64,000 nt of DNA. Source: Calocera cornea HHB12733. Lineage: Eukaryota > Basidiomycota > Dacrymycetes > Dacrymycetales > Dacrymycetaceae. This document shows, piece by piece, positions 1-50,753 of this stretch. The translations under genes were made by a program, and so were the position numbers. The first letter of the stretch is position 1; the number at the start of each line of letters is the position of its first letter. The notes under the pieces are model-generated. The model did not search any database. It had not been told where the DNA came from and saw nothing but the letters and a program-made list of their open reading frames with translations. The stretch lies in the NCBI GenBank assembly GCA_001632435.1, contig KV424057.1:1337-65336 (forward strand), in the 5' to 3' direction.

Positions 1-1305
1 AGAGGGGGGTGATGTCAGGGGACACTCTATTTTCCTTCCTTATTCGGCTCTTACTTGCTTCAGAAGCACTTCCCAACAGGGAATCCGGCCTTCAGGGTCC
101 AGGCCTATGGTCTAGAGTGTGGCCCGGACAACGGCACAGCCATGAGTCTGGCCACTCATCACGACACAGCAGCCACGACTCATACACGCGCAGCCTCGTT
201 CCATGACCTGCTCCATGATGTGCCCCATGATGGGTTCCATGCTCTGACCCATGCAGGTCTGTAGGGTATATATAGGTGGGCTTTAGGCCCCTTAGCTCCC
301 CAGATCTGGTCTCTGAGGAATCCCCCACCATAGGGACTTAGGCACTCGGTCAATCATACACCTATTCCCCTATACTCAAACCCCCTCATACGTCACTACT
401 CCACCTATTCCACTTGACTCTTGTACTTGTCTACCGTCAGGCAGCCTCGTTACTGTGGTGTGCCCTCACAATCTCTGAATGAGGCTTCTTAGCAAAGGCT
501 GGGTCTTAGGCCATGGAATTGATGGCAAAATAGGTTAAATTGAGAGCATAACCACTTGTCATGTGACTGATTGAGTACCTAGTCAATAGTGCCAAACCCC
601 CTGGATGCACTTCATAAAGTGACACTCAGGGCACAGAAGAAAAGACCTGGAACTAGAGACTAGTGGGCTGCCTCTACATGGGCCCAAGTGTGCACACACA
701 TCTCCTGAATGCAAGACTGGGGTCTATTGCCTGGCGGATGCAGTTGTACGCAATCCTAGGGTCCTGCGGGGGCAAATATGAAGCTGTCCATGTAGACCCT
801 CCATCATTGCTAAACTGCCAACCTAGCTATATGTGGCTATGTAGCAGCTATAAGGGTCCTAGCACTCATTGCAACCCCCAATGCTACATAGCGCTATTGA
901 GCATACTGTTCATGACCCCAAAATTATTTTGATTTTGGTGGCATCAAGACATGTAGACTGTATTAACATACAGGCATCCAGAATTTATAGTTTTAGGTAT
1001 TTTATATATGCCTTCTGGGCAGAATTTGCTTGGCCCAAAATGCCCATAGCACCCATAGCAGCTATAGGACCCCTGCTATTAGGGCCTACGGCATTTTTGT
1101 GATGATATGACTGTGGGTCCCTCTGGGTGAAACAAGAGTACCTGGAACAGAACACTGACCTCTCTCAAGGATGACAATGCCAGTGGTCTCACAGAACTTA
1201 ACCATTAGGGCAGTGTAGGGAATACCGAAATGTGGCCCAGAGTATGCATAATTTGGGTGGAAATGAGGGCAAAGGCAAGCACAGGGTAGGGTTGTAATAC
1301 ATGTA
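1..1305. other. non-coding, AT-richer edge region
   Basis: No reading frame here shows a recognisable domain, signal peptide or consistent splice structure. The stretch is richer in A/T and visibly poorer in CpG than the gene-dense parts of the window, as expected for old repeat-derived DNA. Short irregular reiterations of CCATGATG-like words occur near 205-260. I see no gene, RNA or terminal repeat that can be supported. Confidence 0.5.
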
Positions 1306-1795: not shown

Positions 1796-1952
1796 TAGCT
1801 TGACAAATCAAGTTCTAGTCTAATACCATCACATGCAGAGCCGTGCACAAGAAAATACTAAGGAGGGTACATGTGTATTGACTACCTGTTTAGATATGCA
1901 GAATTTGTGTTACAACCAGTGGTATGCTGAGGATTACCTACAATGCATTTCA

Positions 1953-2582
1953 CCTAATGCTGTCATATGAGCACCTTCACCATGTTCTGGGCACTTTGTG
2001 CCTTGACATATGCTACTTTCCTCTCCTTTCTGGGCACCAGGTGGGGTTTGCCATACTTTGCCTGTGCCTTTTTTTTACACCTTGTGAAGTCAGCTCACTT
2101 GTAGAACTTGATAAGGAAACCGGAGCAGAGGAATGTCAACGCAGGGGCGTGTTTGGCTGTTGATGGGGCGCTGTTGTTTGCAAACATGTAAGGCAGGAGT
2201 AGTACAGGCAGGTCTAGCTATATAAGCACAGATAGGGTGAAAGACCGTCCCCTACACTTAGGGCAGGTCTCTCATCAGAACTGTCCATTGTAGACCTTAC
2301 TAGGGATTTTCAAATCTTAGTGGGTAAAGCTATGATCATTAAATATTTGACAAAGGCAAATTAACACCTATACTAGTGTTGACACACTGGGAAGGAAAAG
2401 AGAAGGACCCTATGAAGTCTTAGATGGGCTTTGCGCCAGATGCAAGGACCCTGGCGGGCATTCTGGATTATCTTGACTCGGAAGGGCATTCTGGATTTTA
2501 GGGCTAAAACCAAGGGCATTCTGGATGATAACTCCATGGCAGACACAATGAGGATGAGTGTGAGCTGTGTCGTGGAAGGCAT
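1953..2582 (-). pseudogene. decayed small secreted protein gene (MPSTTQL family)
   Basis: The start codon at 2582 opens a frame beginning MPSTTQLTLILIVSAM, matching the signal peptide of the family members at 22153, 23023 and 24927. The family C-terminus is still legible on the same strand near 1965-2070 (KERKVAYVKAQSAQNMVKVL, cf. KERKAAYVKAASAQNMVKAL in the intact copy). Between them roughly 290 extra bases interrupt the gene after codon 15, including three GGGCATTCTGGAT words. The frame is broken, so no functional protein is expected. The ancestral TAG (1953-1955) is preserved just after a new in-frame TGA. Confidence 0.85.
2456..2526. repeat. three direct copies of GGGCATTCTGGAT
   Basis: The 13-mer GGGCATTCTGGAT starts at 2456, 2484 and 2514 (spacings 28 and 30 bp). 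It lies in the segment that interrupts the minus-strand secreted-protein pseudogene and is absent from the intact family members, so it belongs to the insertion. Confidence 0.8.
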
Positions 2583-2868
2583 TGTGGGTCAGCCGGATGG
2601 GTTGAGGTTGGTATATCAATGAAAGCTGTGAAGATATGCAAAGGCTGCAGCAGCAACATCAGCAGTGCACCTTTGGAAGACCAAACAGACATACTGTCTG
2701 GCACCAGTATATGTGTAGAGGAATATAGGGTGAAAGGATGGGGGCTATTGAAGGTGTGAGCTCCAGCTGTCAGAATGCACAGGGTGCCTCACTACTCACT
2801 GTCCAGCACTGCTCGGAGCAATTGTGAAAAAGTTAGGTGGAATGAGCATGAGAAGCCTATTTACGTCA

Positions 2869-2875
2869 TTTTATA
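2869..2875 (-). promoter_or_regulatory. TATA box of the decayed secreted-protein gene
   Basis: TATAAAA read on the minus strand, 293 bp upstream of the pseudogene start at 2582. The same box sits at 292 and 298 bp from the starts at 22153 and 24927. Confidence 0.7.
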
Positions 2876-3521
2876 CTTGCCATAGGCAATGCCTTCAGTC
2901 GTACCAAGCCTTTTCCCATCATGCACTATTGCCGTCTTCTGTTGTGCCAAGCCTGTGAGGAGGCGTTGAAGGTTACAGGGAAAGGTGCCATGATGATGGA
3001 AACGCTCATCGCAGCTCATCAAGAGACAGCCGTTCAGTTGTCTTGGAGCAAGCGATGCTCTAAGGTTGTCTGAAGCAGAGCTCAGCATGAGGGCCAATTG
3101 CAAAGAGCCTCCATAATACAGAGGCTCTGAAGGCAGTGTTCTACCCCCTGATCCAGCTGCTCTAGTCTGATTTGTGGAAGATGGAGTCGACCGTTAGTTG
3201 CATGGGCACTTGTAGATGTGGTTTGAGTGAGAGTCACACTTGCGACTGGCAGAACCTGTTTAGAGTTTCATGACCATCAACATGGATCTGCTGCTTGACT
3301 CATGCCAGCATGCACCTTTGCACAGCCATCAGAGCTGTTTGCTCCGCTTATGTTTGATGGAAGAATGCAATATAGATACATTGGTAGGAGGGCAGTAGGA
3401 TTACGCTTGGCAGAAAGGGGTAAAATGGTGTTCACTACCGCCGGTCGTTGCACACAGTAGCTCTTGCCAGACCAACCCTAAGCTCATACCATATAACCAA
3501 TTAGTACCGTTTGCAGTGTTA

Positions 3522-21034: not shown

Positions 21035-21860
21035 AGCAACCCAAAGTGCATGCGAATTAAACCAAAATAAGGAATCACCACACGAGCATCACTGTGATGG
21101 AGCATGGCTATGTGACTCGAGTGCCAAAGGTCAAGCGGGAGCAGAACTGGGACTGTACAGCAGCAGCCTCAGGCTGCTGGCTTACCTAGGGTCGGTCTGG
21201 CGAGGACACGTTGGATCTACTGTACTGTTCAGGCGGAACCCAACGTCGTTTCACCTCTTTCCGCGAAGCGTAATCTTGCAGCTGTCCGACCAACGTGCAG
21301 TGCATGGTGCCATCACACATAAAAGGAGCAAACAGCTCCGAGGGCTGTGTACAGGTGCACGGCGCTGGCATGAGTCAAGCAGCAGATCCATCAGTGTTAA
21401 TGGTCATGAAACTCTAAACTGCTTCCGCCGGTCGCAAGGTGACTCTCGCCTAAACCACGTCCACAAGCGCCCGTACGATAATGGTCGACCCCATCTTACG
21501 CAAATCAGAGTAAACGCAGCCGGATCAAGAGGGTAGAGCACTGCTTCCAGAGCTCCCGCATCACGGATGCTCTACGCTTGGAGATCAGCCCTCATTGCGA
21601 TGCTCCCGCGACTCATCGCAAGACGTTCAACACTGCGCTTTTTACCGACGGAGGCTCGGCCAAGGTTTCCACTGAGCTCTGCTGATGGCAATCTGAGAGC
21701 ATCGCTTGCTTCAAGACAGCTGACGACTGTCTCTCGACTAGCTGGGCCGAACGTTTCCATTATCTTGGCAACTGTCTTCTGAAACCTTCAATGTTTCCCC
21801 ACAATAGCGCATGGTGCGAAAGGCGGGCTTGGCACGGCTCGACACGTTGCTCATGGCCAG

Positions 21861-21867
21861 TATAAAA
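21861..21867 (+). promoter_or_regulatory. TATA box, secreted-protein copy 1
   Basis: TATAAAA 292 bp upstream of the ATG at 22153. The same box and spacing are found at copies 3 and 0 (24629 and 2869-2875). Confidence 0.75.
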
Positions 21868-21936
21868 CGAAGCGAATAGGCTGCTAATGCTCGCTCCACC
21901 CCACCCTTTCACAATCCCCCCGAACGGTGCTGGACA

Positions 21937-21992
21937 GTGAGTAGCGACGCACCCTTGTGCATTCGGACAGTTGGGGCTCACACCTTCCATAG
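21937..21992 (+). other. conserved 5'UTR intron, copy 1
   Basis: GTGAGTAGCGACG..CTTCCATAG, 56 bp, lying between the TATA box and the start codon. The same donor and an equivalent acceptor (CTTCAATAG) are retained upstream of 24927 and in the inverted pseudogene copy. A second leader intron appears to end at CTGCTGCAG just before CCTTCATAC. Confidence 0.6.
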
Positions 21993-22152
21993 CCTTCATC
22001 AATTCGGCCACTATCTCGCAACGCATATCCTGGTGACGGATAGTGCGTGTTCTGGTTCTCTAAGGTGCACTGCTGATGCTACTGCTGCAGCCTTCATACA
22101 TCTTCACACCTTTCGTTCATACACCGACCCCGCCTCCTTCAGACGACCCACA

Positions 22153-22476
22153 ATGCCTTCTACGATGCAGCTCGCACTCATTATTATCCTCTCTGCATTT
22201 AGCATTCTCGCCGCTCCCGTGGCGGTCGAGATGCGTGATATCACTCGCATGGCCATCGTTGAGAGAGCCAATCCGCTGAATACCCCGAACGGCCGCGGCT
22301 CTGCCACGGACGCATTCAAACAGTTTGCGAAGGAGTCTCGGACTGCGTACAACCAGATCAAGGCACAGGGAAAGTACGGCGAACCTCACCCTGTACCCAG
22401 AAAGGAGAGGAAGGCGGCTTACGTCAAGGCAGCATCTGCCCAGAACATGGTGAAGGCGCTCACGGGAAAGCATTAG
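22153..22476 (+). CDS. small secreted protein, MPSTTQL family, copy 1
   Basis: A single-exon coding region of 107 residues. MPSTMQLALIIILSAFSILA is the signal peptide, cleaved near AAP. A short segment with acidic and basic residues ends AIVER. The mature body is basic and cysteine-free: NGRGSATDAFKQF, then SRTAYNQIKAQGKYGEPHPV and KERKAAYVKAASAQNM, ending TGKH with TAG. I do not know this family. Its two best-conserved blocks (GRGSATD and the KYGEPHPVP..RKAAYVKA run) are shared with copy 2 and with the decayed copy at 1953. It has a TATA box and two leader introns. Role unknown; secretion is inferred from the leader. Cluster context suggests rapid birth and loss of members. Confidence 0.8.
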   Translation: MPSTMQLALIIILSAFSILAAPVAVEMRDITRMAIVERANPLNTPNGRGSATDAFKQFAKESRTAYNQIKAQGKYGEPHPVPRKERKAAYVKAASAQNMVKALTGKH

Positions 22477-23022
22477 GTGAAATGGAACATATGTAATCCT
22501 CAGATACCGCTCCTCGTGGCACGAATTTCTCATATTCGTGCACCTGTGTAACTAGCCAGCGGATACAACCATTGTCTCCTCGTCAGTATTCGCGTGTACA
22601 AGGCTCCGCATGTGATGGTACTAGAGTAAAACACGCATTGTATAGCCTCTGCTTGTGCTCACCCTGGGCTCCGCCCAAATCAGTGCACCGCAACACAGAG
22701 CATAGTACACACGGTCTGGACTACATTCGCGTATTCCCTGCGCTCCCTTGATGGCCGAGTTCCGTGAAATCACTGGCGTTGTCATCGTTGAGAGAGGTCA
22801 GTGTTCCGTTCCGGATACATTACATGTAATGGAGGTGGTCATATGAGGGTACTAGAACACGCATTGTCTCGGCGCTGCGTCTGCTCCCATAAATGGCACC
22901 GCGCCTGCCTGCTAATACGTACATGTATTGGAAGATGGTCGTATGATGTCGCTGTTTCAGCCTTATTACACTTTCACGACCTTCCCTTCTATATCGAGCC
23001 CACTCCGTCCAGACCATCCACA
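22477..23022. other. spacer between copies 1 and 2
   Basis: Holds the relic above and a direct repeat: GGTACTAGA(GTAA)ACACGCATTGT at about 22619 and again at about 22849. Only about 60-70 bp immediately upstream of copy 2 match the family leader, so copy 2 lacks the conserved TATA block. Confidence 0.55.
22738..22814 (+). pseudogene. relic of a family member (signal/pro-segment fragment)
   Basis: CCGCTCCCTTGATGGCCGAG followed by a stretch readable as EFREITGVVIVERGQCSVPD matches the pro-segment of copy 3 (VESRDAIGVTIAERGEPSVS). No start, signal peptide core or mature region remains around it. It is a fragment left by a lost tandem copy. Confidence 0.6.
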
Positions 23023-23493
23023 ATGCCCTCCACGACGCAGCTCGCACTCATCCTCATTCTCGCCGCCTCCGGCATTGTCGCCGCCCCCCTGAGGGTTGAG
23101 TCCCGTGATACAGCCGGAGTTGACCTCGTTGAGAGAGGTGACAATGGTGGTAAAAGCAATCCAGTGAACACTCTAAACGGCCGCGGCTCTGCGACAGACT
23201 TGTTCAAACAGTTTGCGTCGGATTCTCGGGCTCAGTACAGCCAGATCAAAGCACAGGGAAAGTACGGCGAACCCCACCCAGTGCCCATGAAGGACAGGAA
23301 GGCGGCATACGTCAAGGCGCAATCTGGAGAGAACATGATGAAAGCGCTCGAGGGACCTAAGCAGGCGAAATGGATCGTAGGTGCTGCTCACCGTATCGCC
23401 CCTTGTAGCACGGACTACGCACGTGCGATCACTTGTGTTTCGGGCCAATCAATCTTGTTGCATCATCGTCAGCATCTCTCGTGTACAACATGA
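23023..23493 (+). CDS. small secreted protein, MPSTTQL family, copy 2 (stop-loss extended)
   Basis: 156 residues in one frame. Signal peptide MPSTTQLALILILAASGIVA, then a pro-segment ending DLVERG, then the family body GRGSATDLFKQFASDSRAQY and KYGEPHPVPMKDRKAAYVKA. Where copy 1 stops (GGAAAGCATTAG) this gene reads GGACCTAAGCAG, so the TAG has become CAG. Translation continues about 44 residues into what is 3'UTR in copy 1, adding two cysteines and ending HLSCTT. The TATA-containing promoter of the other copies is missing. The frame is otherwise intact, so it may be expressed from a new promoter or be an early pseudogene. Confidence 0.65.
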   Translation: MPSTTQLALILILAASGIVAAPLRVESRDTAGVDLVERGDNGGKSNPVNTLNGRGSATDLFKQFASDSRAQYSQIKAQGKYGEPHPVPMKDRKAAYVKAQSGENMMKALEGPKQAKWIVGAAHRIAPCSTDYARAITCVSGQSILLHHRQHLSCTT

Positions 23494-23628
23494 TGATACC
23501 AGACTGTAACGAGAAGTGTCACAGCTGTGCTAGGATTCGCGCTGGGTGTCCTGCGCGAGCCAAAGCGCTACGGCAAAGAGCAGATGCCATGATGCACACG
23601 ATCTGGGCCTCATTATCGAGTTCTCGAT

Positions 23629-23757
23629 GTTCCCTTGAGGGGTGAGTGCTATGATACACTGGCGCTGTCATTATCGAGAGGTTAACCTTCCGTTCATGGT
23701 GTACGCCTGGCGGGAAGCACGGTCAAGCCAAGCAGCACAAACACCAGCAGAATGACA
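23629..23757 (+). pseudogene. relic of a copy-3-type member (His/Lys-rich start)
   Basis: TCCCTTGAGGGGTGAGTGCT aligns with the CCCCTGAGGGTTGAGTCCCG of copy 3. It continues through GGCGCTGTCATTATCGAGAG to CCTGGCGGGAAGCACGGTCA, encoding PGGKHGQAKQHKHQQN, the start of the His-rich region. The frame is broken between these parts. Copy-3-type tails therefore existed more than once in this cluster. Confidence 0.65.
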
Positions 23758-24926
23758 GGAGTATGTCCAAACCGGCACTGCCCATGGATACGGCTACGGA
23801 TAACCACCGCCCTGAGTCGTGGGGCTGCGTCGATCGATGCCGATGCTGTCGAGACGTATGTAGTGATCGCGTGTAGATACTTAGGGACCAATGTAACGAC
23901 TTTGACCCCCGAACGTTCACCGCGCCTCGTAACAGAGGCTGTGTCCGCTGCCATGACCGGCGCCGGGCGCGCCCCTTCGTTCCTGCCAAGGGAGACTCGT
24001 CATCTCGATGTTCTCCGGCAAACACCATATCGTGTTGCGTCCTATGGTCCAGCAATAATATCTCTTTGCGATGAGCTCCGAAGTCTGGATGGCATGCTAC
24101 ATACACGCTGGGACGACTCAACGACTCAGCCAGCAATCCCATCAGCTCGGGATGGCAATGAAACATGCCACTGCTCTGGACTGATTACATCAGTCGCGAC
24201 GTGATTCTCACCCAAATTACGTCCACAAACTCTCTTGAGCTCGGGGTCGACGCGATGGTGTCCAACTCGAACTGAAGCAGGTTGATCAAGAGGCTAGAAC
24301 ATCACTGTGGCAAGTTCTGTGTCGCTACTACTCTCACGCCTTGCAATCAGCCTTCATTGCGCTGCGAGTCTGACTCCTCGCAAGGCGCTCAACAGTTCGC
24401 GGATTTCCGACGGCGGTCTGACCGACGTTTCGACTGAGGTCTGCTTAGGGCGATCCAATGATTAGGACATTGCTTGCTGAATGCAACGGATGGCTGTCTC
24501 TAGACGTGCTCGGACCAGCGATTTCATTTTCCTGCCACCAGTCCTGAAACATTGCACATTTCCTCACGATTGCGCATGATGGAAATCATCGGCTTGGCAC
24601 AACCCCTGAGATGGTGCACACTGGCGGGTATAAAAGGACGCAACAAAACCTGGGATTCTCCTCACCACTACCTCACGACCCCTCTGAACGGTGCTGGACA
24701 GTGAGTAGCGACGAGCCTCCGAGCCGGGCAGTTGAAGCTCACACCTTCAATAGCCTCCCTCCATCCTTTCACCCTCTTTTCCGCTACACATCTTTTCCCG
24801 GTGCCGGACAGTATGCAGTCCTTGTCTGCTGAAAGTGAAGTGTTGCTGATGTTGTTGTTTCAGCCTTCGTACACTCTCACAACTTTCGTTTCTATACCCA
24901 AACCCACTCCGTCCAGATCACCCGCA
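23758..24926. other. upstream region of copy 3
   Basis: From about 24110 to 24926 the sequence repeats the 21380-22152 promoter and leader block. Before that (23758-24100) I see no coding or repeat structure that can be supported. Confidence 0.55.
24629..24635 (+). promoter_or_regulatory. TATA box, secreted-protein copy 3
   Basis: TATAAAA 298 bp upstream of the ATG at 24927, in the duplicated promoter block. It is followed by the same GTGAGTAGCGACG leader-intron donor and a second leader intron ending GTTGTTTCAG. Confidence 0.75.
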
Positions 24927-26144
24927 ATGCCTTCGACGACACAGCTCGCACTCATTCTTACCCTCGCTGCCTCCAGCATTCTTGCCGCTCCCCTGAGGGT
25001 TGAGTCCCGTGATGCCATTGGCGTTACCATCGCTGAGAGAGGTGAACCTTCCGTTTCCGGTACTCCTGTCACACCCGGCGGGAAGCACGGTCACGGAAAG
25101 CACATCAAGCATGCCGGACATGGCCATCACGGGAAGCACGCCCAATCCCATGGCCTGCACAAGCATCACGGCCACCACGGCCACCACGGTCACCACGGCC
25201 ATCACGGCCACCATGGCAAGCACGGACACGGCCACCATGGCAAGCACGGCAAACATGGCAAGCACGCCAAGCACGGACACGCCAAGCAGCACCATCACAA
25301 GCAGAAGCATGCGGCCGTCGGCGGTCCCGCTGCTCAGAACGGCACTGCGTCTGCAGCTGTGGATCCGGCTACGGCTTCTGTCCTGAGTGGTGCTGCGGCC
25401 GCTCCTGTGAATGGAACTGTGTCTTCCCCCGTGAGCGGTGGTGTCCCTGCCGATGCGTCCGCCCCCCCCTCGGACGGCTCTGCCCCTGCTTCCGGTTCTG
25501 GCCCTACCAGTGCGTCCAGCTCTACTGGTCCAGCGTCTACACCTGCCGCATTGTCCTCCCGCGGTATCGGATCCACCATCAAGACTGACTGGAAGAAGGC
25601 AGAGCCTTATGTAAAGGACGCCGCCTCCATTGCCGGCAGCGTTCTCCCCTTGTTCCTCCGCGATGTGGATGGCGATGAGGACGATGCATTGGACGCCCGT
25701 GACGTAGGAACAACCATCAAGAACGACTTGAACAAGGCAATGCCTTATGTAAAAGACGCCGCTTCCATTGCCGGCAGTGTTCTCCCCCTCTTCCTCCGCG
25801 ATGTAGACGGCGATGAGGACGAGCTTGAGGAGCGTTACTTCGCGGGAGGTCACATGTACCACTGGCACCCAACGGGATTCCACAGCCGGCCGCCTCTGCG
25901 CCACTTCATGACTCGTGATGTGGACGAAGCTGACGACGAGCTCGATGAGCGTTTCTTCTCTGGCGATGACGAGGATGAGCTCGATGAGCGCAGCCTGGGC
26001 AGCGACCTGAAGAACGACTGGAACAAGGCCCAGCCATACATCCAGACCGCAGGCACCGTCCTCGGCGACGTTGGCTCGTTCGTGGGCGGCATTGCGCCGT
26101 ATTTGGAGAAGGCGCCCAAGCGCAGCCTGAACGATCTGGATTAG
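24927..26144 (+). CDS. secreted His/Lys-rich repeat protein on the MPSTTQL leader
   Basis: 405 residues, one exon. The leader MPSTTQLALILTLAASSILA and pro-segment ending TIAERG are those of copies 1 and 2, but the mature part is unrelated. Residues about 50-125 are a Gly/His/Lys run (HHGHHGHHG, GKHGKHGK) able to bind metal ions. Next comes an Ala/Ser/Pro/Thr linker of about 85 residues. Then two near-identical repeats of about 47 residues contain PYVKDAASIAGSVLPLFLR and end in an acidic DVDGDED spacer. A Met/His-rich segment follows, and a third diverged repeat (LKNDWNKAQPYIQTAGTVLG) closes with APKRSLNDLD. Acidic spacers ending L-D/E-A/E-R recur (LDAR, LEER, LDER, LDER), resembling propeptide cleavage sites. 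No cysteines. Family unknown; a multi-peptide precursor is my inference. Confidence 0.75.
   Translation: MPSTTQLALILTLAASSILAAPLRVESRDAIGVTIAERGEPSVSGTPVTPGGKHGHGKHIKHAGHGHHGKHAQSHGLHKHHGHHGHHGHHGHHGHHGKHGHGHHGKHGKHGKHAKHGHAKQHHHKQKHAAVGGPAAQNGTASAAVDPATASVLSGAAAAPVNGTVSSPVSGGVPADASAPPSDGSAPASGSGPTSASSSTGPASTPAALSSRGIGSTIKTDWKKAEPYVKDAASIAGSVLPLFLRDVDGDEDDALDARDVGTTIKNDLNKAMPYVKDAASIAGSVLPLFLRDVDGDEDELEERYFAGGHMYHWHPTGFHSRPPLRHFMTRDVDEADDELDERFFSGDDEDELDERSLGSDLKNDWNKAQPYIQTAGTVLGDVGSFVGGIAPYLEKAPKRSLNDLD
25563..25835 (+). repeat. in-gene tandem repeat of about 143 bp
   Basis: Two direct copies (from 25563 and 25706) encode the TIK.D..KA.PYVKDAASIAGS block with its acidic spacer. A third, clearly diverged copy lies near 25995-26110. 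The DNA of the first two is nearly identical, so the duplication is recent or homogenised. Confidence 0.75.
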
Positions 26145-26583: not shown

Positions 26584-29500
26584 TTACATGCAGACGAACT
26601 TGGACTTGCGCTTCTGCATGTCCTCCATGCGCTGATCGAGCTGCGCACGGGCACGTTCACGCGCCTTGCGCTCTTCGTCTAGCTTGCGCTCTGCTGTCTG
26701 CTTCTCCTCTTGCATGGAACGGCGCAGCCTTGCTGAATCGTCCTGAGCGTCGCGCAGCTGCGTCTGGAGCGCCTGAATCTGGGTATTCAGCGCGTCACGC
26801 TCCTTAGCGAGGTCGCTGGATTGCAGCCGCGACTTCCGCACTAAGAGGTTGTAAGTACGCTGTGAAATGACGCAGAGTCAACACTCACAGTGACGCTCAG
26901 CATCGTGCAGCTCGTTCTCCAGGGTGGCCACAAGCTGCTGGTTGGCTTGCAAATCAGCCTCGCAATGCTCAAGCTGTTTCTCCAGGGTTTTGATCATGAG
27001 CTGGGACTCGGAGTACAGGTGCTGCATGTCTTCGAACTGCTGCTGCAGTGCACTTCCATTAGTCGCGTTGGTGGCGAGGGTGTCCTTCATGGACGGGGCG
27101 CCTGATGGCACCTGGTCAGACGCTGCTTCGGATCGGAAGTCCTCAGAGTCGTAGGACATGCGGGGCACCATAGACTTGTCCGCATCAAACACTGGCAGCT
27201 CCATGGGGACTGGGGGAGGAGGAACAGTTGGAGGCGGTGACGCCGGCGGTAGTTTCTTAGACAAGCTATTGAGCCGTCCGATAGGCAGTGTCAGGGAATG
27301 CAAAGGATGCACAGCAGATCCATTGGGCGAAAGTTCCATCTGAGTGACCTTCGGTGTGGTGACCTGTGCTAGCTGGTCATGAAGCTCCTTGACGACACTG
27401 TCGCGCTTGCTCATTTCAGCAGCCAGCAGATCCTTCTCATCCTTCGCTCTGTTGAGCTGCTCGTGCGTCTCTGCTAAAGCAGCGCGGTGACGCTCGAGTT
27501 CTTGAACGAGAGAATCCCGCCTTCCGGCTTCCTTGACCAGTCGGGCCTGTTCTTCGGCGGTGCGCTTCAGATCAGCGTCAAGCTTTTCTGCGCGAACCTT
27601 AGCTGCATCAGATTCGTTCCGAAGCGCCGACAACTCCGAATACAGCTTCGTGATAACAGACTGCTTCGCCTGCATATCTTCCTCATGAGTGCTGAGAAGC
27701 TGTTCTCTTTCGGCCTCGGCCTGAGAGACTTGAGCAGCGAGCTCACGTACTTGATCAGCAAGCAAGTCGTGTGCCTTGCGAACTGTGTCGAGTTCTTCTG
27801 TCTGCATCGTTTGAAGCTCAGCAAGAGCTTGCGAATGTTGATCACGCAGCTCGGCAATTGCCGCTTGATGCTCTAGCCGATTCTCCTCCAATGCTTCTTG
27901 GGCAGATTGTTGCATGGCGAAGGTGTCCTGATGCGCTTCTTGTAGGGCAATTTGATGATCAGCGCTCATCGCGAGGACAGTTTTACCATGTTCCTGCACT
28001 TGCTTCTGAAGGGCAGAGGCGTGTTCTTTGCGGATCTCCTCGAGATGATCGCTGTGCTCCTCCTCCTTGCGAGCAAGAATTTGGTCGTACTTTTGATTGA
28101 GCACCTGCTCGACCTCACGTGCTTTCTTGTCCGCGGCCCGGGCGACTGCCTCTTCACGCGATTGCTGAAGATCGGCCAAGGTAGAAGCATGCTGCTCCTT
28201 CAAACGAGCAATGCTCGACTCCACCTCCTCCCGAAGCTTGCGCATGGAGGTATCATGTTCCTCTCTGCTGCGAGCCAACGATGCCTTGAGTCGTTCGACC
28301 TCAGCGTCTTTCTCTTCCTGGAGACGAGCAGTAACGGTGGCATGCTCAGCCTTCAGACGAGCAATGGCAGCAGAATGGTCTTCCTCCTTGGCGGCAATGG
28401 TGCGGGCGTGTTCGGCCTTGAGCCTCTCGGAATCCTCCTTCCAAGCGGTCTCACGACGTTCAAGCGCGGCAGCCTGCTCTTGACGGAGCTGTTGGATGGC
28501 TTCGACATGTGCATCCTGTGACTCGGTGAGAGTGCCTTCACGAGCCATATCGGCTTCCTTGAGCTGTGCAGCGTGATCCTCCTTGAGTCTGGCGAGGTGC
28601 GCGGTCACTTCATCATCCCGGCGACGTAGGTCGGCTTCGTGCTCGGCACGGAGCCTACTCAGCGACTGAATGTGCTCGTCTTCGGCAGCCTGGCGAGCAG
28701 CAGTGAGATCGGCCTCGCGACGGCGAAGGTCGGCGATGGTGGCGTTAAGGTCGTCATGCTGATCCTCTGCACTGCGAAGCTTGCCCCGAACGCTCTCGAG
28801 CTCAGTCGACAGCGTCAAGTTATGCTCGCGAGCTTGCTCGGTCATGATCTCGTACTTCTCCTCAGTCGCCCTGAGCTTCTCATGGAGGCCTTCCATTTCA
28901 GTGGCCATGTTGAGCGCTTGGTCGCGGGAGACAGTCGTGAGGTTCTCGCATTGCTTCGTCATCCGAGTCAGCTTGGAAGAAATTGATTCGATCTCGGCGT
29001 GGAGCGCCTCGACTTCCTCGCGATGCGTAGACTCTTTCTGCGCCATAGAGCGGAGAAGTTCCGCGTGGCGGAAAGCCTCTCCATCAGAGTCGGTAGGGGA
29101 AGATCCCAGGGAGGACTGCTGACGCTGATGCATTGTGGCTGATACCGGCGCTTCTGCTGCAGGGGTAGGGGGAACATCGATCTGGAGTTCCTTGATGTCC
29201 TCGCTTGCCTCGTCCTCGGGGACGGCAGTCAGACCTGAAGATGTGGGCATCATCGTGGCTGACGAGTTCTTCAGGGCCATCTCCAGCGCCGTGATCTCTG
29301 CCTCCCGAGCCATCAAAGCCTGCGACAGAATGGTCAACGTGCATCTCTCGTCAGAGCGAATTTACGTACCTCTTGGAGGCGCATCACCTCACTTTCCAGG
29401 GCTCGGACGGAGCGCTCCTCAGAAGCACTCGGAGGGAGGCTGCCCATAGAGAAACGAGGACTGGGTGGACCGGCCAGCATCCGCGCACTCCCATTCGGTG

Positions 29501-32500
29501 GGAGGCTCATGCGTGGGCTTGGTGGGGAGAGCGCGCCCAGAGAGTATCGGGGAGATGGTGGCGACCGGAGCTCCCTAGAAGTCAAGATGCTGAGGCTGCC
29601 GTGCGAGCCGTGCCCGTTCGGCGAGACTGGCGAGAAGAGCCCTCCATTCTGCAGGGACCCATTCTGCCCATTGGGCGCACTGGTGTTGATAGGGGGTGTC
29701 GGCGGCAATGCAGGCCGCAAAGAGAGCTCCTGCGCAAGCGACTGCTGTGATTGCGATTGCGACCTTGCCCGGAGCTGATCTGACGAGGCCGCGGACCGGA
29801 AAAACGACCGGGAGCCTGCGCTATCCTTTCTTGGGGTTTCGCGACCTTGCCGACGGCCTACCAATAGACTGTTGCGTTCGCCTTCGGAGCCGTCACTGGG
29901 CTCGGGAGTAGGCAGCTCAACCGAGGTGTCGGGGGATTTCCTGGATTGAACGGGAGACTGAGACTGAAGGATCGAGAGCTGGGAGGTAAGCGAGGAGATC
30001 TCGGAGAGCGCAGACTCGTATTTTGCGCGCATGGAGGCAAGGTCGGAGATTGCGGTGGTATGTTCCATCCTGAGCGCAGCAAGCTGGACTTGAGCAGCAG
30101 CTTGCGCGGGCGAAGTGGGCGTCTCCTCGACAGCAGCGTCGATCGCCTTGTCCGCCTTCTCCTGGTTCTCCATAGCTTGTCGCTCCTTCTCCTTCTCCCA
30201 CTCGTCCTTCTCGCGCTCCGCCTCGGCCACACGACTCTCGAGCACTTTGACCCGGTCCTCGCGCTCTTCCAGCTCCTCCAGCAGTCGCTGCATCTCGCTG
30301 TCCCTCTCCCCATCACCAGCGCCGAGCACCTCGACGCGCCTTTCGAGGCTGGCGACCTCCTCGTCGCGCTCTTTGAGGGCGTCCTCGAGCTGCTCAACAG
30401 CCTCGCGCAGCTCGCTGATGCTTTCGTCCGAGCGCTGCAGGCGGACTTCGAGATTGGTGATGTAGGCCGCAGTGGCAGCTTCCTCCTCGCGGTGCTTGGA
30501 GATCTGCGAGCGAAGATCTGCGACAAGACCTCCGTGGGACGAGCTATTATCCTCCAGCATCCGGAGCTTCTGCTCGAGATCCTGCACATAGCGCTACAGT
30601 GACGTCAGCAGGTCGGCGGGCAAGGCATCGAGATCCACTGACCTCAGTGGAGCCCTCGCGCTCAGACAGCTTTACGATCCTCGCTCGGAGCTCCTCAACG
30701 AGCTGCTCAGTGCGAGTGCGCTTCCTAGACTCCTCCTCGAGCTCGGCTTCCTTCTCGTCAAACATCGCGTTCGTGTGATCCTAGAACGCACACACGAGCG
30801 TCAGCGTGTGCCCTAGTCCAGACTCAAAACACGCGTGGGGGGTCAGGGATGGGGTAAGGTTGCCTCCGCCTCGGGCCGAGACAAGCCCAACTCTAAGCCC
30901 ATCCGGCCGCCCGGCCGCCGCGCAGAGCAGGTCAAACGAACTGAATGAAGGGCAGGACGTACCAAAGCGACCCTGGCGAGCTTGAGCTCGACCTCGAGCG
31001 CGCTCATGCGCCGCTCGTACTCCTCCACGACGGGCGCGACGATCTCGGCGTACTTGCGCTTCTCGCGCTCCTCGACGCCGCCCGGCCCGCCCTCGGAGGG
31101 CGCGGCGAGGAGCTCCTTGAGCCGCTCGACCTCGCCCAGTCGATCTTTGTACATCAGCGCGAGCTCCTCGTGCGCACGCTGCAGGTTGGTCAGCTGGGCA
31201 GCAGCTTCGCTCCCCGCGGCGGAGGTGGCTGCGCCAGAAGGCGCCGCGACCGCACCGCCGGCTTTGAGCGCCTCGATCTCCTTGCGGAGCTTGGTGACCA
31301 TCCCCTGGAGCCAGTCGAGGTCGCCCCAGCCCTCCTCACGCACCTCCTTCGAGACGACATTCTTGATGCCTCTCGCGCGAGCAGCATACTTGAGCGTGTT
31401 GAGCGTCTCGGCAAGGTTGTACTCGGCGGGCGCAACACAGGCCAGCATGAGCGTGTGCGCGTTCCCGCCGAGCGAGTCTTGCAGGAGCCGCGTGAGCTTC
31501 GAGTCGCGGTACGGCACGTGCGTGATGCCGCCGGAGTGGGCGATGGGGAGCGCAGCGAGCGCGGAGATGACGTTGCCGAGGGCGAGCAGACCAGAGTTGA
31601 TCGAGATACCCTCCTTGATACGCTCGCCTTGCGCAGCGGTGCGCTTGAGCTGCATAAGTAGTCAGTCATGTGCCATATTCAATACAGCCGTGTTGAAGTG
31701 CGTACCCTCTCGCTACCGGCCAAATCCACGAAGTGAAACTTGCTCGTCATGACCACCCATCCCTGCTCATCATCATCGTCCTTGCTCGGCGGCATCGGGC
31801 TGTTCCTCCCGGGCGTCATGATCCCGCTCGTCCTCGGCTTGAGCGAGTTGTTCCCCACAACGCTGCTGGGGCGCTGGCCGAACGCAGGGCTGGTCGCGCG
31901 CAGTGCCTGGCTAGAAGGCCGCGCGAGCCTGCTGGGCGCGGGGGACGTGCGGCCCGTTGGCGAGCGCAGGCTCCCGAACGCGCTGGGCGGAGGGGGGGAC
32001 ATGGCGCGGGAGGGGTTGGGCGAGGGAGGCGCATTGAGTGGACGGCGCTGGGTGAGCGTGAGCGAGAAGATGGCGTGGGAGCGCGAGGACTGCGCGTTCA
32101 TGTCCGTCTCGTTCGTGCGGCGGAGGGAGCCGCCATGTCGGAGCAGGCTGGCATGCAGGAGTTAGCATATATGCCGCCGGGTGAGATGGTTCAACGCACG
32201 CTAGCACATCACCAACATTCTTCACGCTGACCTCCTTCAGCCCCTCCCACTTGATCCGCCCATCCTTGTCCTCGCGGATCATGACCTCCCTGCGCCCCTC
32301 GCCCTCCTCAACAAGCAGGTCGATGAGGTCCTCGTTGTACAGCTCCACATACGCGACGCGCGCCTCGAACGTTGCCCCGCCCCTGCCATCAGGCAGCTTG
32401 GAGAAGATCGAGTGCAGCGCGCGGGGGATGATGCCCGAGCTGGCAGGCGGCTGGCTTCCGATGCTCGGCGGGGGCAGGTCCGGCCCGGACATGCTGTACG

Positions 32501-32959
32501 TCTTGCCCGAGCTGGTCTGGCCGTACGCGAGGATGGTGCAGTTGAAGCCCTCCAGGAAGCGCTGGACGAGCGGCTCGGCGGCGATGGCGTACACGTCTGC
32601 CTGGGGCGTCTGCGGGCCCAGCACGCGGTCGAACGTGAACGACTGCTTTTGGGCGGCAGAGCCCTGCTGGCCCGCCCCCCCGCCGGAGACACTCGAGATC
32701 GTCGACGTGGAGGCATTGTGCTGGTGGGAGGCGGTCGCGGACGAGTCGACGTGCACGGTCGTGTTCGACGAGGGCAGGACGGCGATGCGCTGGAAGCGCG
32801 ATGGGATGGACGCGTCCTGGGATGTGGGAGGCCGAATGCGGACAGCTGGGCAAGGTAAACAAAGTCGAGTCAGTCACGTTATTGCCCGAAATGGGCCACG
32901 CAGCACCACGCACCGACTTGCACGCTCGTCGCGGTGGACTTGTCCTTCTTGTCGGCCAT
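26584..32959 (-). CDS. kinesin-4 family motor (chromokinesin/KIF4-like)
   Basis: About 1,950 residues in roughly ten exons, start ATG at 32959. [15 protein letters not shown] precedes the motor: AVRIRPP, the P-loop [13 protein letters not shown] (near 32510), switch [14 protein letters not shown], switch [11 protein letters not shown], then [20 protein letters not shown], the sequence that places it in kinesin-4. KEVREEGW and a short neck follow. The rest is coiled coil with Ser/Pro-rich breaks (29400-29900 and 27160-27330), and a long array of LKAEHA-like heptads at 27900-28700. Kinesin-4 motors move to plus ends and slow microtubule growth, acting in spindle midzones or on long-range transport. 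The last residues are [11 protein letters not shown] before TAA. It ends convergent with the secreted cluster. Confidence 0.9.
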
Positions 32960-47217: not shown

Positions 47218-47640
47218 GCTGTGAGTTCACGAAGCAGGTCGCAGAGGAGAGGGAACTGACGCTTCCCCTTTGTCTCGGAGAGGCACACGCCCGTGACTCA
47301 CGCGTACAACTCCGCGTTTGACCTGTGAGCGCGCTTCTTGCTAATCCGTTCACATCTCACCCTGCACCCGTCTGCATCATCGTGTCGTATCAGGAGGGTG
47401 TGATTGGTAACCTTTCCTTGTGAGAATACTTAGTGTGCTGGATCTTTGCTGTCTTCGTGCAACACGACGAAAAACACGCTGCTAATCAACCCGCATAAGC
47501 AACGCGCCGTCCAAAGGGTTGTGTGATAAGAATGTGGTATTGCAATAAGCTAGCCGAAATACCTGTTGAATGATAAAGAGCAAGCAAGTATTTGTGCGGG
47601 GACGGGTACTAGAGAACATTACAAGTGCAAACAAACAGCG
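47214..47640 (+). pseudogene. transporter 3' fragment left by tandem duplication
   Basis: CATGCTGTGAGTTCAC here matches CATGTTGTGAGTGG at the HFMF exon end of the transporter (about 44824). GCTTCCCCTTTGTCTCGGAG matches the next exon (PLVSEMHTP). After an internal deletion of about 600 bp, ATCGTGTCGTATCAGGAGGG matches the last exon (VVSYQEG). The 3'UTR match continues (AACACGCTGCTAATCAA; AGCGAACGGCGTCTACC). It encodes nothing complete. Confidence 0.85.
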
Positions 47641-47686
47641 AACGGCGTCTACCGTACGACTACTCCCGGCCATCCTCCCCCGCGCG

Positions 47687-50667
47687 CTATGTCTGCATAG
47701 CGTCGTTCGAGCGCCCGCTCCTGCTGCTCGGCCCAGCAGTGGCGACGGTCGAGCTGGGGAGGCGGAAGCCGGTACCTGACAGGCCGAGGAAGGAGCGGAC
47801 TCTCGGCGCGGGCGTCGGGGTCGACTGCTCCCACGGCTCGACCTCCTGGATCTCGTCCGACTCCTCGCCGTCGACGTCGATATGCCTCGCCGCCGCGGCA
47901 AGCGCCTTGGGGTGCCGCACGGGCTCGTGCCGCATGTCGATGTCCTCCTCGACGTCGAGCTCGTCCTCCGCGTCACCATACGACTGGGACATGGACTCGT
48001 CCTCGTCCTGCTGCCGGGCGATCCGGCGCACATAGTCCGCCGGCGGGTAGGCCCCCTGCCCGCGCTTGAGGTGGCCAGCGTCGTCCTCCGCCTCCTCGTA
48101 CGACGCCTCGCCCTCGACATCGTCCTCGTGCACATCGCTCTCCTCGCTGACCTCGCTGGCATCGTCGTCCAGCACGTCATCTTCCAGCGTCGCGCCGTCC
48201 TCGTCGCGCTCCGCACCCCACTCGAACACGTCGAGGAACGTCTCGTCCCCGCGGTTGCACGCGCTGACGACCCTCCGGCCCCAGCCAGCGACTTGCCACA
48301 CCCCGCCGACATCTGTCAGCAGGTCGCGCCGCCACTCGCCCTTCTCCGCGTCCCACATCTTGAGACTACCCTCCGAGCCGCTCAGCACGCGGAACTCGTC
48401 GTGCAGGAAACAGGTGATGGCGGCCGGGTGGCCCGTGAGGGTGTGCAGGAGCTGGCCGGTGGTAGGCGACCAGACGCGCAGGGTCGAGTCAGCCGCGGCG
48501 GAGATGAGCTGAGTTGGGCGGACGGAGAGGAGGCCGACAAGCGAGGTGTGCCCGGAGAGCGAGTGCAGGCACTGGCCATCGACCAGAGACCAGATGCGGA
48601 CCGTGCCGTCCATCGAGCCGGACGCGCACCGCTCGCGGACAGGGTCGAGCGTGACGCTGTACACTGCGCATACAGGTCGATCCATGAACCCACAAAGTGA
48701 AAACCACAGCGGCTCACCCTTTTGCGCATGCCCAGAGAGCACGAAACGGCATTCCCCGCTGGCCATATCCCACACGCGCACCGTGCAGTCGTAGCTCCCG
48801 GAGACGAGGGTGCTTCCTCTTGCAGCAAGCGCACGCACGGCGCTTGTATGCCCTTGGAATATCCGCACGTGATACGGGTTGCGGTTCGGCTCGTCCTGCA
48901 AGGAAAATCAGTATGCATACATGATGAGCTATGGGAAGGACGCACCCGATCCGTATGATCCGGCTCGTTCGTCCCCGGGCTCTTGTACTCGGCCTCGCCC
49001 TCCCTAGGCAGGTACCACAAGCGCAGGCTGTTATCCCTGCTGCCAGTGATGATCATCCTCCTCCTCGGCCACGCTCCGTTCTCGCCCTTCTCCACGATCT
49101 GCAGGCAGCGGACGGTGCTGGTGTGTCCGGCAAATACATGCGTGTTTAGCCCTGTGCGGAGGTCCCACACGCGCACGGTCCGGTCCGTCGAGCCCGAGAC
49201 GAGGGTATTGTGGACGAACTGGAGGGCCCAGACGCCGCCCGAATGGCCGTTGAGCGTCTGGGTGAGCAGGCCGGTGAGGGGCGAGTGCACGTGGATGGTA
49301 TGCTCGTCCGAGGCGGAGACGATGCGCGTGCTGGAGATCTGCAGGCAGGTGACGACTGTCTGCGTCGGGAGAGGGATGGTGAGCTGTGAAGGGGGCTGGG
49401 CGAGGACCTGCTGAAGCCGCAGGCGGTGGCGGAGGAGGGTCTTGTACGGGTGTGGCGGGCGGAGGTTGTGCGGGTAGTTGAGCGGCGGGTGCTGGTGTGC
49501 GCTGAGCCGCATGGACGGGGGCAGGGAGGCGCGGGAGGGGTCCTCGAACCAGAGCTTGTAGTGCTTGAGCAGGCTGCGCCAGAGCGGCATCTCGTTGTCG
49601 ATGAGGTCGCGCCAGTTGCGGCAGACGCGGCAGCAGCGGAGGAGGGAGCGGAGGTCGATGCACTGGAGGATCTGGAGGGAGAGCTCGGTCGGGAGCAGGG
49701 AGAGGAAGTCGCGCGAGAGCGCCGGGGTGATGAACCCGTCCGCGGAGCGGAGGACGGAGAGCGGGGAGAGCTTGAGCAGGGAGAGGAGAACCTGCGTCTG
49801 GAGCGGCGACGGAAGCTGGCTGTACTGCGTGAGCAGGATGGGGAGGGACATGAGCGTCTGGAGGGGGAGGATCGGCAGCTCTGGGGGGCTGTTCGAGTAC
49901 GTCGTCGTGACTGTCGAGGACTCGGCCTGGGCGGGCTCGCTGACGGAGGGCGGGGGCGAGTTTGACGGCGAGGGCAGCGGGTGCAGGCCCGGCCCGCTGG
50001 TGCTCCCATGCGCCTGGAGGTGCAGTGCACGCGCCTTCTTCCTCGGTGGGCTGGGCGGCGGGGGGCTAGGTGGGCCCTCGCTCATGCGCACGTCGCCCGA
50101 CTGGCTCGGTTGGCTCTGGCTCGAGAGGATGCTCGACTGGCGCTCTGCGTTGTTGCTGAGCATGCGCTTGCGGCCCTTCCCCCCGCTACTCGCGCTGCCG
50201 GGCGTGGGCGCGCCCCCGGGCGGGAAATAGCGCTCGACGGCCTCGCGCACGGTCCCACCCTGGAGGATATCGTCCACGGAGCCCTCGCGGCGGATGCGGA
50301 CCCAGCTCTCGCCGCGCTCGAGCTGGGGGCGCGGGTCCGCCTCTGGCACGCCTGGGTCGCCAGAATGGTACCGTGCGCGTACGCCGGGGAGGAAGTATGC
50401 CTGGGTTGCGGGCGGGAGCGGGGCATGGAGGAGCGGGTATGCGGGTGAGACGTGCAGGCGGGAGGAGGGGGAGCCGGCGAGATGCGGGTAGAGGGCTGAC
50501 GGGGACGGCGGGAGGGGGAGTGGGATGGGCGGGTAGACGGTGGTCTGGGTCGTGGTTGTGGTCACGCTGGATGGTGAGGTGAGGACACGCGGGTGGGATG
50601 TATGCGCTATTTGGGGGGACGTACACGGTTGTTGTGGTGGAGGGGAGGAGGGTGAGGGTGGGGACAT
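47687..50667 (-). CDS. CDC4-like F-box/WD40 protein
   Basis: About 950 residues. The first ATG is at 50667-50665 (MSPPSPSSPPP); the frame is open further upstream but without ATG. A Pro/Ser/Thr-rich N-terminus contains a basic PPRKKARALHL signal. An F-box follows: FLSLLPTELSLQILQCIDLR, then SLLRCCRVCRNWRDLIDNEM and PLWRSLLKHY. Seven or eight WD40 repeats follow (TVVTCLQISSTRIVSASDEH, GHSGGVWALQF, GHTSTVRCLQ, GHTSAVRALAARGSTLVSGS, and so on). An acidic tail (DVHEDDVEGEASYEEAEDD) runs to SNDAMQT. The family recruits phosphorylated substrates to the SCF ubiquitin ligase (cyclin and Sic1-type degrons in yeast). Introns sit after HTDR and GHAQK. A (GGT)n run lies just upstream. Confidence 0.88.
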
Positions 50668-50753
50668 GGTGGGTGTCCGCGTCCATGTGCGCGTCGTGGA
50701 GAGCGGGGGTTGGATCAATCAGCGGCGGGGATGGAGAGTGGAGAGTGGAGAGT

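Follow-up and report, generated by a model that had tools for sequence, protein, structure and literature searches.

At one locus of the basidiomycete jelly fungus Calocera cornea HHB12733, genes for secreted precursors appear to share one 5' module that has been joined to two different cargoes. Alignments within the 64,000-nt window (the whole stretch of DNA analyzed, to which all positions refer) show a shared module, an abrupt loss of similarity where the pro-segment ends, and a recurring pair of type-1 and type-3 sequences, where type 1 comprises copies 1 and 2 and an inverted relic, and type 3 comprises copy 3 and three decayed 5' ends. The reading we favor, and consider probable, is that of a locus-bound family in which type 3 is an older polyprotein, type 1 is the same module followed by a new basic body, and the pair has been duplicated.

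The common signal peptide and pro-segment that the earlier note had described at 22153, 23023, and 24927 were borne out over 115 nt, with 90/115 matches between copies 1 and 3, 93/115 between copies 2 and 3, and 83/115 between copies 1 and 2. The putative signal peptides start with a stretch that is hydrophobic as judged by eye, and the pro-segments all end in ER (AIVER in copy 1, 22153..22266; DLVER in copy 2; TIAER in copy 3, 24927..25040; all forward strand). Copies 1 and 3 are also alike upstream, where their alignment (883 columns, 68% identity, 21412/24174 to 22267/25041) spans the promoter with its TATA box, two leader introns, the signal, and the pro-segment. TATAAAA lies where it had been claimed, at 21861 (-292, copy 1) and 24629 (-298, copy 3), within promoter and leader regions at 21249..22152 and 24174..24926 (forward strand), and in the former, alignment to the relic begins at 21249 and alignment to copy 3 at 21412. 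For upstream and leader sequence only, the best local alignment of copies 1 and 3 scored 188 bits, against a maximum of 30.1 in 100 dinucleotide shuffles, and the promoter identity is thus well supported. The leader introns likewise proved common to both copies, with splice signals kept there and in the relic: those of copy 1 (21941-21992 and 22043-22090) are removed in CALCODRAFT_78649 (P0005), a partial deposited model that covers copy 1 and maps letter for letter, and those of copy 3 (24705-24753 and 24811-24863, forward strand) are predicted from alignment to copy 1 only. Genome searches found the shared promoter nowhere but at copies 1 and 3 and the relic, and this signal and pro-segment at no genes other than the three. 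Copy 2 (23023..23493, forward strand) has a type-1 body behind a signal and pro-segment closer to copy 3; its upstream similarity starts only at 22944, within leader intron 2, and it therefore lacks the shared promoter. Its old stop now reads CAG (23362-23364), which adds 43 residues before the next stop. The claim of one promoter and signal serving two unrelated proteins accordingly holds for copies 1 and 3, but not for copy 2.

Matches between copies 1 and 3, counted per 30 nt from the ATG, number 27, 23, 21, and 20, then 8, 6, 10, 9, 7, 7, and 12, a fall to chance level at the ER of the pro-segment. Beyond it lie bodies of 69 residues in copy 1 (22267..22476, forward strand) and 367 residues in copy 3 (25041..26144, forward strand), which also differ in composition. 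Homology between them was rejected: BLASTP failed to align body 1 with body 3 even at E <= 100, the body 1 region translated in all six frames matched copy 3 only at chance level (best E 0.73), and neither fused nor homologous bodies were found in this genome, in agreement with the earlier view that the two are unrelated. The proposal that a 5' module was joined to different cargo gains from the sharp break and from bodies without detectable homology, but loses copy 2 as a case with the promoter. Copies 2 and 3 carry a splice-donor-like GAGAG/GTGA at the joint of pro-segment and body; the motif suggested a hint of exon shuffling through an intron, and nothing further was found.

No Pfam family scored above its curated cut-off for copies 1-3, nor any NCBIfam entry for copies 1 and 3. 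Body 1 (charge +9, no Cys, two predicted helices) occurs in this genome only in copies 1 and 2 and the relic; matches on C131 (E 0.375) and C55 (E 0.705) in the own-genome protein search were taken as chance. None of its four Arg residues has Leu, Ile, or Val at P4 (LIV-xx-R). A structural model built from a two-sequence alignment has two helices with pLDDT 82-89 over residues 51-100, 70 for the last seven residues, and <50 over residues 16-45. Foldseek of this model against the PDB gave 134 matches at E <= 10 and 0 at E <= 0.001, phmmer of body 1 against PDB sequences gave no match at E <= 10, and the modeled fold is read as a generic helical pair. Body 1 was found at a single locus in the genome. 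The earlier view that no family was known for either body does not hold for body 3, which has a homolog on contig C123 (best E 6.5e-17; 56% over 85 residues) and three genes of similar architecture on C25 and C189.

Body 3 consists of a His/Lys/Gly tract, an Ala/Pro/Ser/Thr-rich linker, and helical segments (residues 213-245, 259-291, and 356-399; 25563..26123, forward strand; homologous to C123) with intervening acidic stretches that end in ALDAR, ELEER, or ELDER, and a repeated core formed by a 137-nt direct repeat at 83% plus a third related segment. The C123 homolog leads on to the three precursor-like genes (two on C25, one on C189), which have a hydrophobic start, AAP, a pro-segment ending LxxR, and acidic spacers ending LxER or similar. 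As queries, these genes did not find copy 3 directly; the link runs via C123 and may be partly compositional. Scores of C123 above the ParB_N (36.3 over 26.3) and DUF4760 (27.4 over 25) cut-offs were judged compositional. Leu, Ile, or Val stands at P4 of 7 of the 11 Arg residues in the copy 3 tail, 12/14 in C123, 12/22 and 9/11 in the two C25 genes, and 12/18 in C189, an excess that holds for the tail and its four kin with these three residues, with Ala/Pro added, and with Leu alone (Met was left out, since PMC8528282 does not list it). This pattern agrees with the Kex2 specificity described there, and the genome contains one P_proprotein match. Amphipathicity is clearest on C25 and C189, where 4/5 basic pieces reach shuffle p <= 0.01; only 2/6 of the longer C123 segments reach p < 0.05, and the copy 3 segments (charge +1 to +2) have borderline moments (shuffle p 0.05-0.06). 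The copy 3 tail was modeled at pLDDT 41 and had one weak phmmer match in the PDB (E 0.26).

Copy 3 may be a His-rich metal-binding or structural secreted protein instead of a peptide precursor, which we regard as possible but doubtful. Its long His/Lys/Gly tract and Ala/Pro/Ser/Thr-rich linker, and the weak moment and charge of its helices, would suit such a protein; however, the regular acidic spacers ending LxER/LxAR, the Arg sites with aliphatic P4, and the homology between the tail and C123, which lacks a His tract in its part beyond the gap, argue against it. A protein search with copy 3 (the 7998 candidates with most shared words, in a length band that would miss a very long relative) gave four matches at E <= 0.001 covering at most 9% of the query (P0001 to P0004), among which P0001 and P0003 are His-rich and otherwise unrelated. 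Copy 3 itself, as read here, was not among the proteins returned, and residues 204-405 returned no relative among the 7996 candidates with most shared words in the same kind of band.

As a precursor, copy 3 would resemble the KEX2-processed repeat proteins or KEPs (PMC6339444, PMC9769878, PMC7329392), described as secreted precursors with repeated segments flanked by kexin-type sites. However, KEP surveys cut at KR, RR, or KK, and the copy 3 repeats are bounded by single Arg. The survey in PMC6339444 requires four or more fragments after cutting at KR/RR, with KK as the fallback; copy 3, with one KR and one KK, yields two fragments either way, copies 1 and 2 one either way, and the second C25 gene two at KR/RR and three at KK, while KK cutting gives 10 fragments for C123 and four each for C25 and C189. 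The pro-segments resemble those of Kex2-processed pro-domain (K2PP) effectors (PMC8528282), which are N-terminal and end in Arg with an aliphatic P4, as AIVER, DLVER, and TIAER do; K2PPs are pathogen effectors with demonstrated cleavage, whereas the Calocera likeness is one of motif.

The locus, which lies upstream of coiled-coil/kinesin genes at 26.6-32.9 kb, proved larger than the 21312..26144 first assigned to it. An inverted type-1 relic (3425-1812, reverse strand) retains promoter, leader, and signal start at 2554..3425 (TATA 2875-2869, ATG 2582-2580; 78% and 73% to copy 1) and the second half of body 1 with its 3' flank at 1812..2070 (74% to copy 1), interrupted at approximately 2071..2553 by foreign DNA, of which 2085-2546 has 15 matches elsewhere in the genome. 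A type-3 5' end lies behind every type-1 copy (3/3): psi3a behind copy 1 (22741..22814, forward strand; 77% to copy 3 over 75 columns), the weakest assignment of the three, with similarity running ~19 bases beyond the ER codons; psi3b behind copy 2 (23631..23752, forward strand; 71% over 114 columns and 87% over 38 to copy 3), which keeps a piece of the His/Lys region; and psi3c behind the relic (1108..1241, reverse strand; 80% to psi3a over 104 columns, 73% to copy 3 over 106). These decayed ends imply that the cargo split is older than the duplication of the type-1/type-3 pair.

The direction of the swap could also be the reverse, with type 1 old and its 5' module moved onto a type-3 body from a C123-like family, although we think this unlikely. 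The signal and pro-segment were not found at the body 3 kin, the body is kept in three type-1 copies and one type-3 copy, and the C123 homolog is a possible donor. Against this, the C25 and C189 kin share a hydrophobic start, AAP, and their own pro-segment ending LxxR, so that type 3 may always have had one, and body 1 has no other locus in the genome. Among the candidates scored in protein searches with copy 1, copy 3, and copy 3 residues 204-405, no relative outside the genome was found that would polarize the swap.

We also weighed whether the bodies are homologous after all, diverged past recognition under strong selection while gene conversion kept promoter, leader, signal, and pro-segment alike, as argued for the Hessian fly SSSGP-1 genes (PMC2955719), which form a cluster with one gene inverted and keep promoter, UTR, signal, and intron conserved while the mature protein differs greatly. 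The Calocera locus shares this layout: clustered genes, one of them inverted, with promoter, leader, intron, and signal conserved and the mature part different. Informative sites in the signal and pro-segment, moreover, do not unite the two type-1 copies (7 join copies 1-2, 14 join 1-3, and 17 join 2-3), which suggests exchange between copies, and dN/dS there is 1.0 between copies 1 and 3. Yet the disparity of the bodies in length and composition, their failure to align, the abruptness of the break, the constraint on body 1 between copies 1 and 2 (dN/dS 0.38), and the match of body 3 to a gene on another contig make this explanation very improbable. SSSGP-1 mature regions are described as diversified members under positive selection, which body 1 does not show (one pair, copies 1/2), whereas the Calocera bodies lack detectable homology and, unlike SSSGP-1, one of them has kin elsewhere in the genome. 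Least probable of all is that type 1 is a decaying or chance, non-working reading frame behind a genuine type-3 gene: copy 2 has neither promoter nor stop, the relic is broken, and the copy 1 protein search (10 candidates) returned solely its own deposited protein and no homolog outside C. cornea, but copy 1 is intact with a deposited model, and in body 1 amino-acid changes are fewer than silent ones (Fisher p 0.007, one short pair).

Under the favored reading of an older type 3 and a derived type 1, the 5' module would comprise promoter, two leader introns, signal, and a pro-segment with a kexin-type [LI]xER site at its end. Type 3 would be a polyprotein cut after LxxR by a Kex2-like protease, freeing amphipathic helical segments from between acidic spacers. 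Type 1 would derive from the 5' part of a type-3 gene, set in front of a new basic body of 69 residues with the pro-segment boundary as the junction; the result would be a short basic helical protein that is expressed and exported in the same way. Two or more duplications of the pair would have followed, with decay of most type-3 members. The products are perhaps likeliest to be membrane- or surface-active peptides, in antimicrobial defence or hyphal coating, the least certain step. Processing, expression, and activity are here predicted from sequence, and we infer, as the earlier note did, that the module may be a route to new effectors.

Precedents for a shared module with differing mature parts are, by analogy, the Hessian fly genes and frog antimicrobial peptide precursors, the latter with a conserved signal, acidic propiece, and variable mature peptide (PMC7106915). 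Acidic parts stand opposite cationic helices in the frog precursors and may do so in Calocera, but the amphibian genes are animal genes, whereas the candidate Calocera precursors have several acidic spacers each and single-Arg sites. Oomycete Crinkler effectors (PMC3726527) and bacterial 'terminal reassortment' likewise combine a conserved N-terminal delivery part with new members formed by fragment recombination, although in large effector families and not a three-gene fungal locus. In Nasonia, the nabaecins are proposed as a new secreted peptide gene formed as an exon-shuffling chimera (PMC2853521); they join two known peptide families, whereas body 1 has no known source. A broader proposal, which we advance only tentatively, is that Calocera makes a class of secreted polyproteins that are cleaved at single Arg in LxxR sites and whose acidic spacers offset cationic or amphipathic helices. 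At this locus, the entire 5' half of such a gene would have launched a new, possibly de novo, secreted cargo; with the break falling at the processing site, that cargo would have acquired promoter, leader introns, export, and maturation all at once.

The origin of orphan secreted proteins is an open question, and this locus offers a probable case of cargo change in which one can see the breakpoint, still align the non-coding promoter, and trace the order of events in decayed partner copies. If our reading is right, the processing site would be a natural joint for swapping secreted cargo with expression and export undisturbed. The companions on C123, C25, and C189 suggest a class of single-Arg peptide precursors only partly covered by dibasic-site searches; if so, surveys that count dibasic fragments would overlook copy 3 and one C25 gene.

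Copies 1 and 3 of the secreted-protein genes in this dacrymycete basidiomycete (start codons at 22153 and 24927; copy 2 starts between them, at 23023) align at 68% over 883 columns, from 21412/24174 to 22267/25041, and their upstream and leader DNA alone scores 188 bits, against a maximum of 30.1 in 100 dinucleotide shuffles. The TATAAAA boxes reported in the earlier note are present at 21861 (-292 from the ATG of copy 1) and 24629 (-298 in copy 3), and that of a type-1 relic lies 293 bases before its ATG. The copy 1 leader introns (21941-21992 and 22043-22090, forward strand) are positioned by the deposited annotation, a predicted model that maps back exactly once they are removed. Copies 1 and 3 and the relic all conserve the surroundings of the first donor (GGACAGTGAGTAG) as well as both acceptors, and in all of them a GCTGATG, a putative branch site, lies ahead of the second acceptor. 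Among the best three candidates scored, a whole-genome DNA search with the promoter found copy 1, copy 3 and the relic only. A protein search with copy 1 gave a single match, identical along the full length of the query: C. cornea's own deposited protein (P0005, hypothetical protein CALCODRAFT_78649, partial [Calocera cornea HHB12733]).

The difference in cargo beyond this 5' module is real, old and sharp. Counted per 30 bases from the ATG, matches between copies 1 and 3 run 27, 23, 21 and 20, then 8, 6, 10, 9, 7, 7 and 12, the break falling at the end of the pro-segment, which closes in ER. BLASTP of body 1 against body 3 returned no alignment at E<=100. Body 1 (the type-1 cargo) has 69 residues, a charge of +9 and no cysteine; body 3 (type 3) has 367, running from a His/Lys/Gly tract through an Ala/Pro/Ser/Thr-rich linker to helical segments between acidic stretches. 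At the pro/body joint, copies 2 and 3 (23136-23160 and 25035-25050) read GAGAGAGGTGA, resembling a splice donor, and copy 2 then carries 18 extra bases relative to copy 1, containing a stretch readable as GT..AG; a vestige of an earlier intron at this joint in copies 2 and 3 is possible.

Copy 2 is mixed. Its likeness to the other copies starts only late in leader intron 2, at 22944, and it therefore lacks the shared promoter. Its signal and pro-segment match copy 3 at 93/115 positions and copy 1 at 83/115, and its body is of type 1 (75% across a 333-base stretch that takes in body and 3' flank), the stop having become CAG and adding 43 residues. Informative sites in the signal and pro-segment (7 joining copies 1 and 2, 14 joining 1 and 3, 17 joining 2 and 3) are at odds with a clean type-1 clade and suggest exchange between copies. 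As single pairwise estimates from short sequences, dN/dS is 0.38 for body 1 of copies 1 and 2 (dN 0.18, dS 0.47; Fisher p 0.007 for substitutions, on rounded counts), and 0.35 (copies 1-2), 0.26 (2-3) and 1.0 (1-3) for the signal and pro-segment. Body 1, modelled from a two-sequence alignment, forms two predicted helices (residues 51-71 and 83-104; pLDDT 82-89 over 51-100), with no PDB match at E<=0.001.

The locus that the earlier note had described as three genes does hold all three, and its extent is greater, taking in an inverted type-1 relic and decayed type-3 5' ends. The relic (3425-1812) keeps promoter, leader and signal start; foreign DNA follows, and beyond it the latter half of body 1. 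Of the upstream informative sites, the relic shares 77 with copy 1 and 30 with copy 3, and copies 1 and 3 share 33 with each other. The rest of the genome gave 15 matches to the interrupting DNA (2085-2546), at up to 89% over ~170 bases, so this DNA appears to be a repeat or a mobile element. The relic sits close to the contig start in a low-G+C zone (0.47-0.55 in the first 12 kb, below most of the remaining window at 0.52-0.71). Every type-1 copy (3/3) is trailed by a decayed type-3 5' end: after the relic (1241-1108, reaching ~53 bases beyond the ER codons), after copy 2 (23631-23752, with a piece of the His/Lys region at 87% over 38 bases) and, the weakest case, after copy 1 (22741-22814, typed by just ~19 bases beyond the ER codons). 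The simplest account would be a type-1/type-3 pair predating these duplications. Downstream of copy 3, a kinesin motor domain in two reverse-strand frames (PF00225) and long coiled-coil-like frames, the latter with no Pfam match, probably make up one gene (26584-32873), a usable synteny anchor for the copy 3 locus. Further reverse-strand frames encode an F-box/WD40 protein (47482-50718) and a glycosyl hydrolase family 92 protein (60481-61449).

Body 3 has relatives on other contigs. Six matches at E<=0.001 (best 6.5e-17, 56% over 85 residues) and a further one at 0.08 link the tail of copy 3 to a frame on C123 whose gene start is masked by Ns; the C123 frame ends in APKRRSLEELD and copy 3 in APKRSLNDLD. 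With C123 as query, C25 (E 4.5e-5) and C189 (5.0e-4, 5.8e-4) were found; the C189 gene found the second C25 gene (6.5e-39) and C123 (8.3e-6). Copy 3 was not found directly with either the C189 gene or the second C25 gene, so this wider link depends on C123, and composition may account for part of it. From their layout, the two C25 genes and the C189 gene (L032, L033 and L038) are read as short secreted-looking precursors. Each opens with a hydrophobic start and AAP, followed by a pro-segment that closes in LxxR; after it, acidic pieces finishing in ELDER or the like alternate with strongly basic helical ones such as SFKSFFKKIGKGIKKGFSKIAGGAISVMAR. The tail of the second C25 gene is SLEDLD, which the first C25 gene and C189 lack. 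A fourth such precursor, decayed and with one stop, lies at C189:6396-6692 (L052). Two secreted-looking starts upstream of the C123 homolog, MYSTATIALLL.. (L017:1989-2744) and MHSAATIAVLL.. (L017:4321-4532, entering the N gap), come with HDE/QDR-rich repeats and DER sites; as a genome query, the former matched only itself.

Charge and helical moment were computed for copy 3, C123, C189 and the first C25 gene. The last two together have five basic pieces (+7 to +13), four of which have helical moments at shuffle p<=0.01; in C123, 2/6 longer pieces reach p<0.05, and the three helical pieces of copy 3, with charges of +1 or +2, give p 0.05-0.06. On these values, the case for predicted peptides is less strong in copy 3 than among its distant kin. 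A model of the tail of copy 3 puts helices at its residues 7-40, 53-86 and 151-191 (precursor 211-244, 257-290 and 355-395), where the segmentation places them, which at pLDDT 41 is no more than consistent.

Candidate processing sites were scored as Arg with Leu, Ile or Val at P4 (four places back, Arg included). Against a background of 0.18, they make up 7/11 Arg in the copy 3 tail (binomial p 0.001), 12/14 in C123 (3e-7), 12/22 and 9/11 in the two C25 genes (3e-4, 1e-4) and 12/18 in C189 (2e-5), p values overstated by non-independent repeats and by a motif chosen post hoc after viewing the sites. For Lys, the count was 0/11, 1/60, 2/23 and 2/16, and 4/35, respectively; body 1 has 0/4 such Arg, and the body of copy 2 has 1/3. 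The motif of these candidate sites agrees with Kex2 specificity as described in PMC8528282 (P1 Arg; Leu or another aliphatic at P4; variable P2, Glu tolerated), and PMC9769878 reports products, apparently cleaved after single Arg, of Coprinopsis KEX2-processed repeat proteins (KEPs) expressed in Pichia. The genome has one P_proprotein match. Neither Calocera nor Dacrymycetes is named in the main text of three KEP papers (PMC6339444, PMC9769878, PMC7329392), and among the open-licence papers listed we found none on copies 1-3 and their kin.

Because body 3 has kin and body 1 has none (a whole-genome DNA search found body 1 in copies 1 and 2 and the relic only, among the best three candidates scored), we infer with moderate confidence that type 3 is the older; the reverse order, type 1 first, is kept as a rival. 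Runaway divergence fits less well than cargo replacement at the pro-segment boundary, since upstream non-coding DNA is still 68% alike and dS next to the break is 0.26. There are precedents elsewhere: fragment recombination is described for Crinkler genes (PMC3726527), exon shuffling has been proposed for chimeric wasp nabaecins (PMC2853521), and frog peptide precursors join a conserved signal and acidic propiece to a variable peptide (PMC7106915). In Hessian fly SSSGP-1, promoter, UTRs, signal and intron are conserved while the mature parts differ (PMC2955719), a precedent that, like the C. cornea locus, places conserved 5' parts before differing mature parts.
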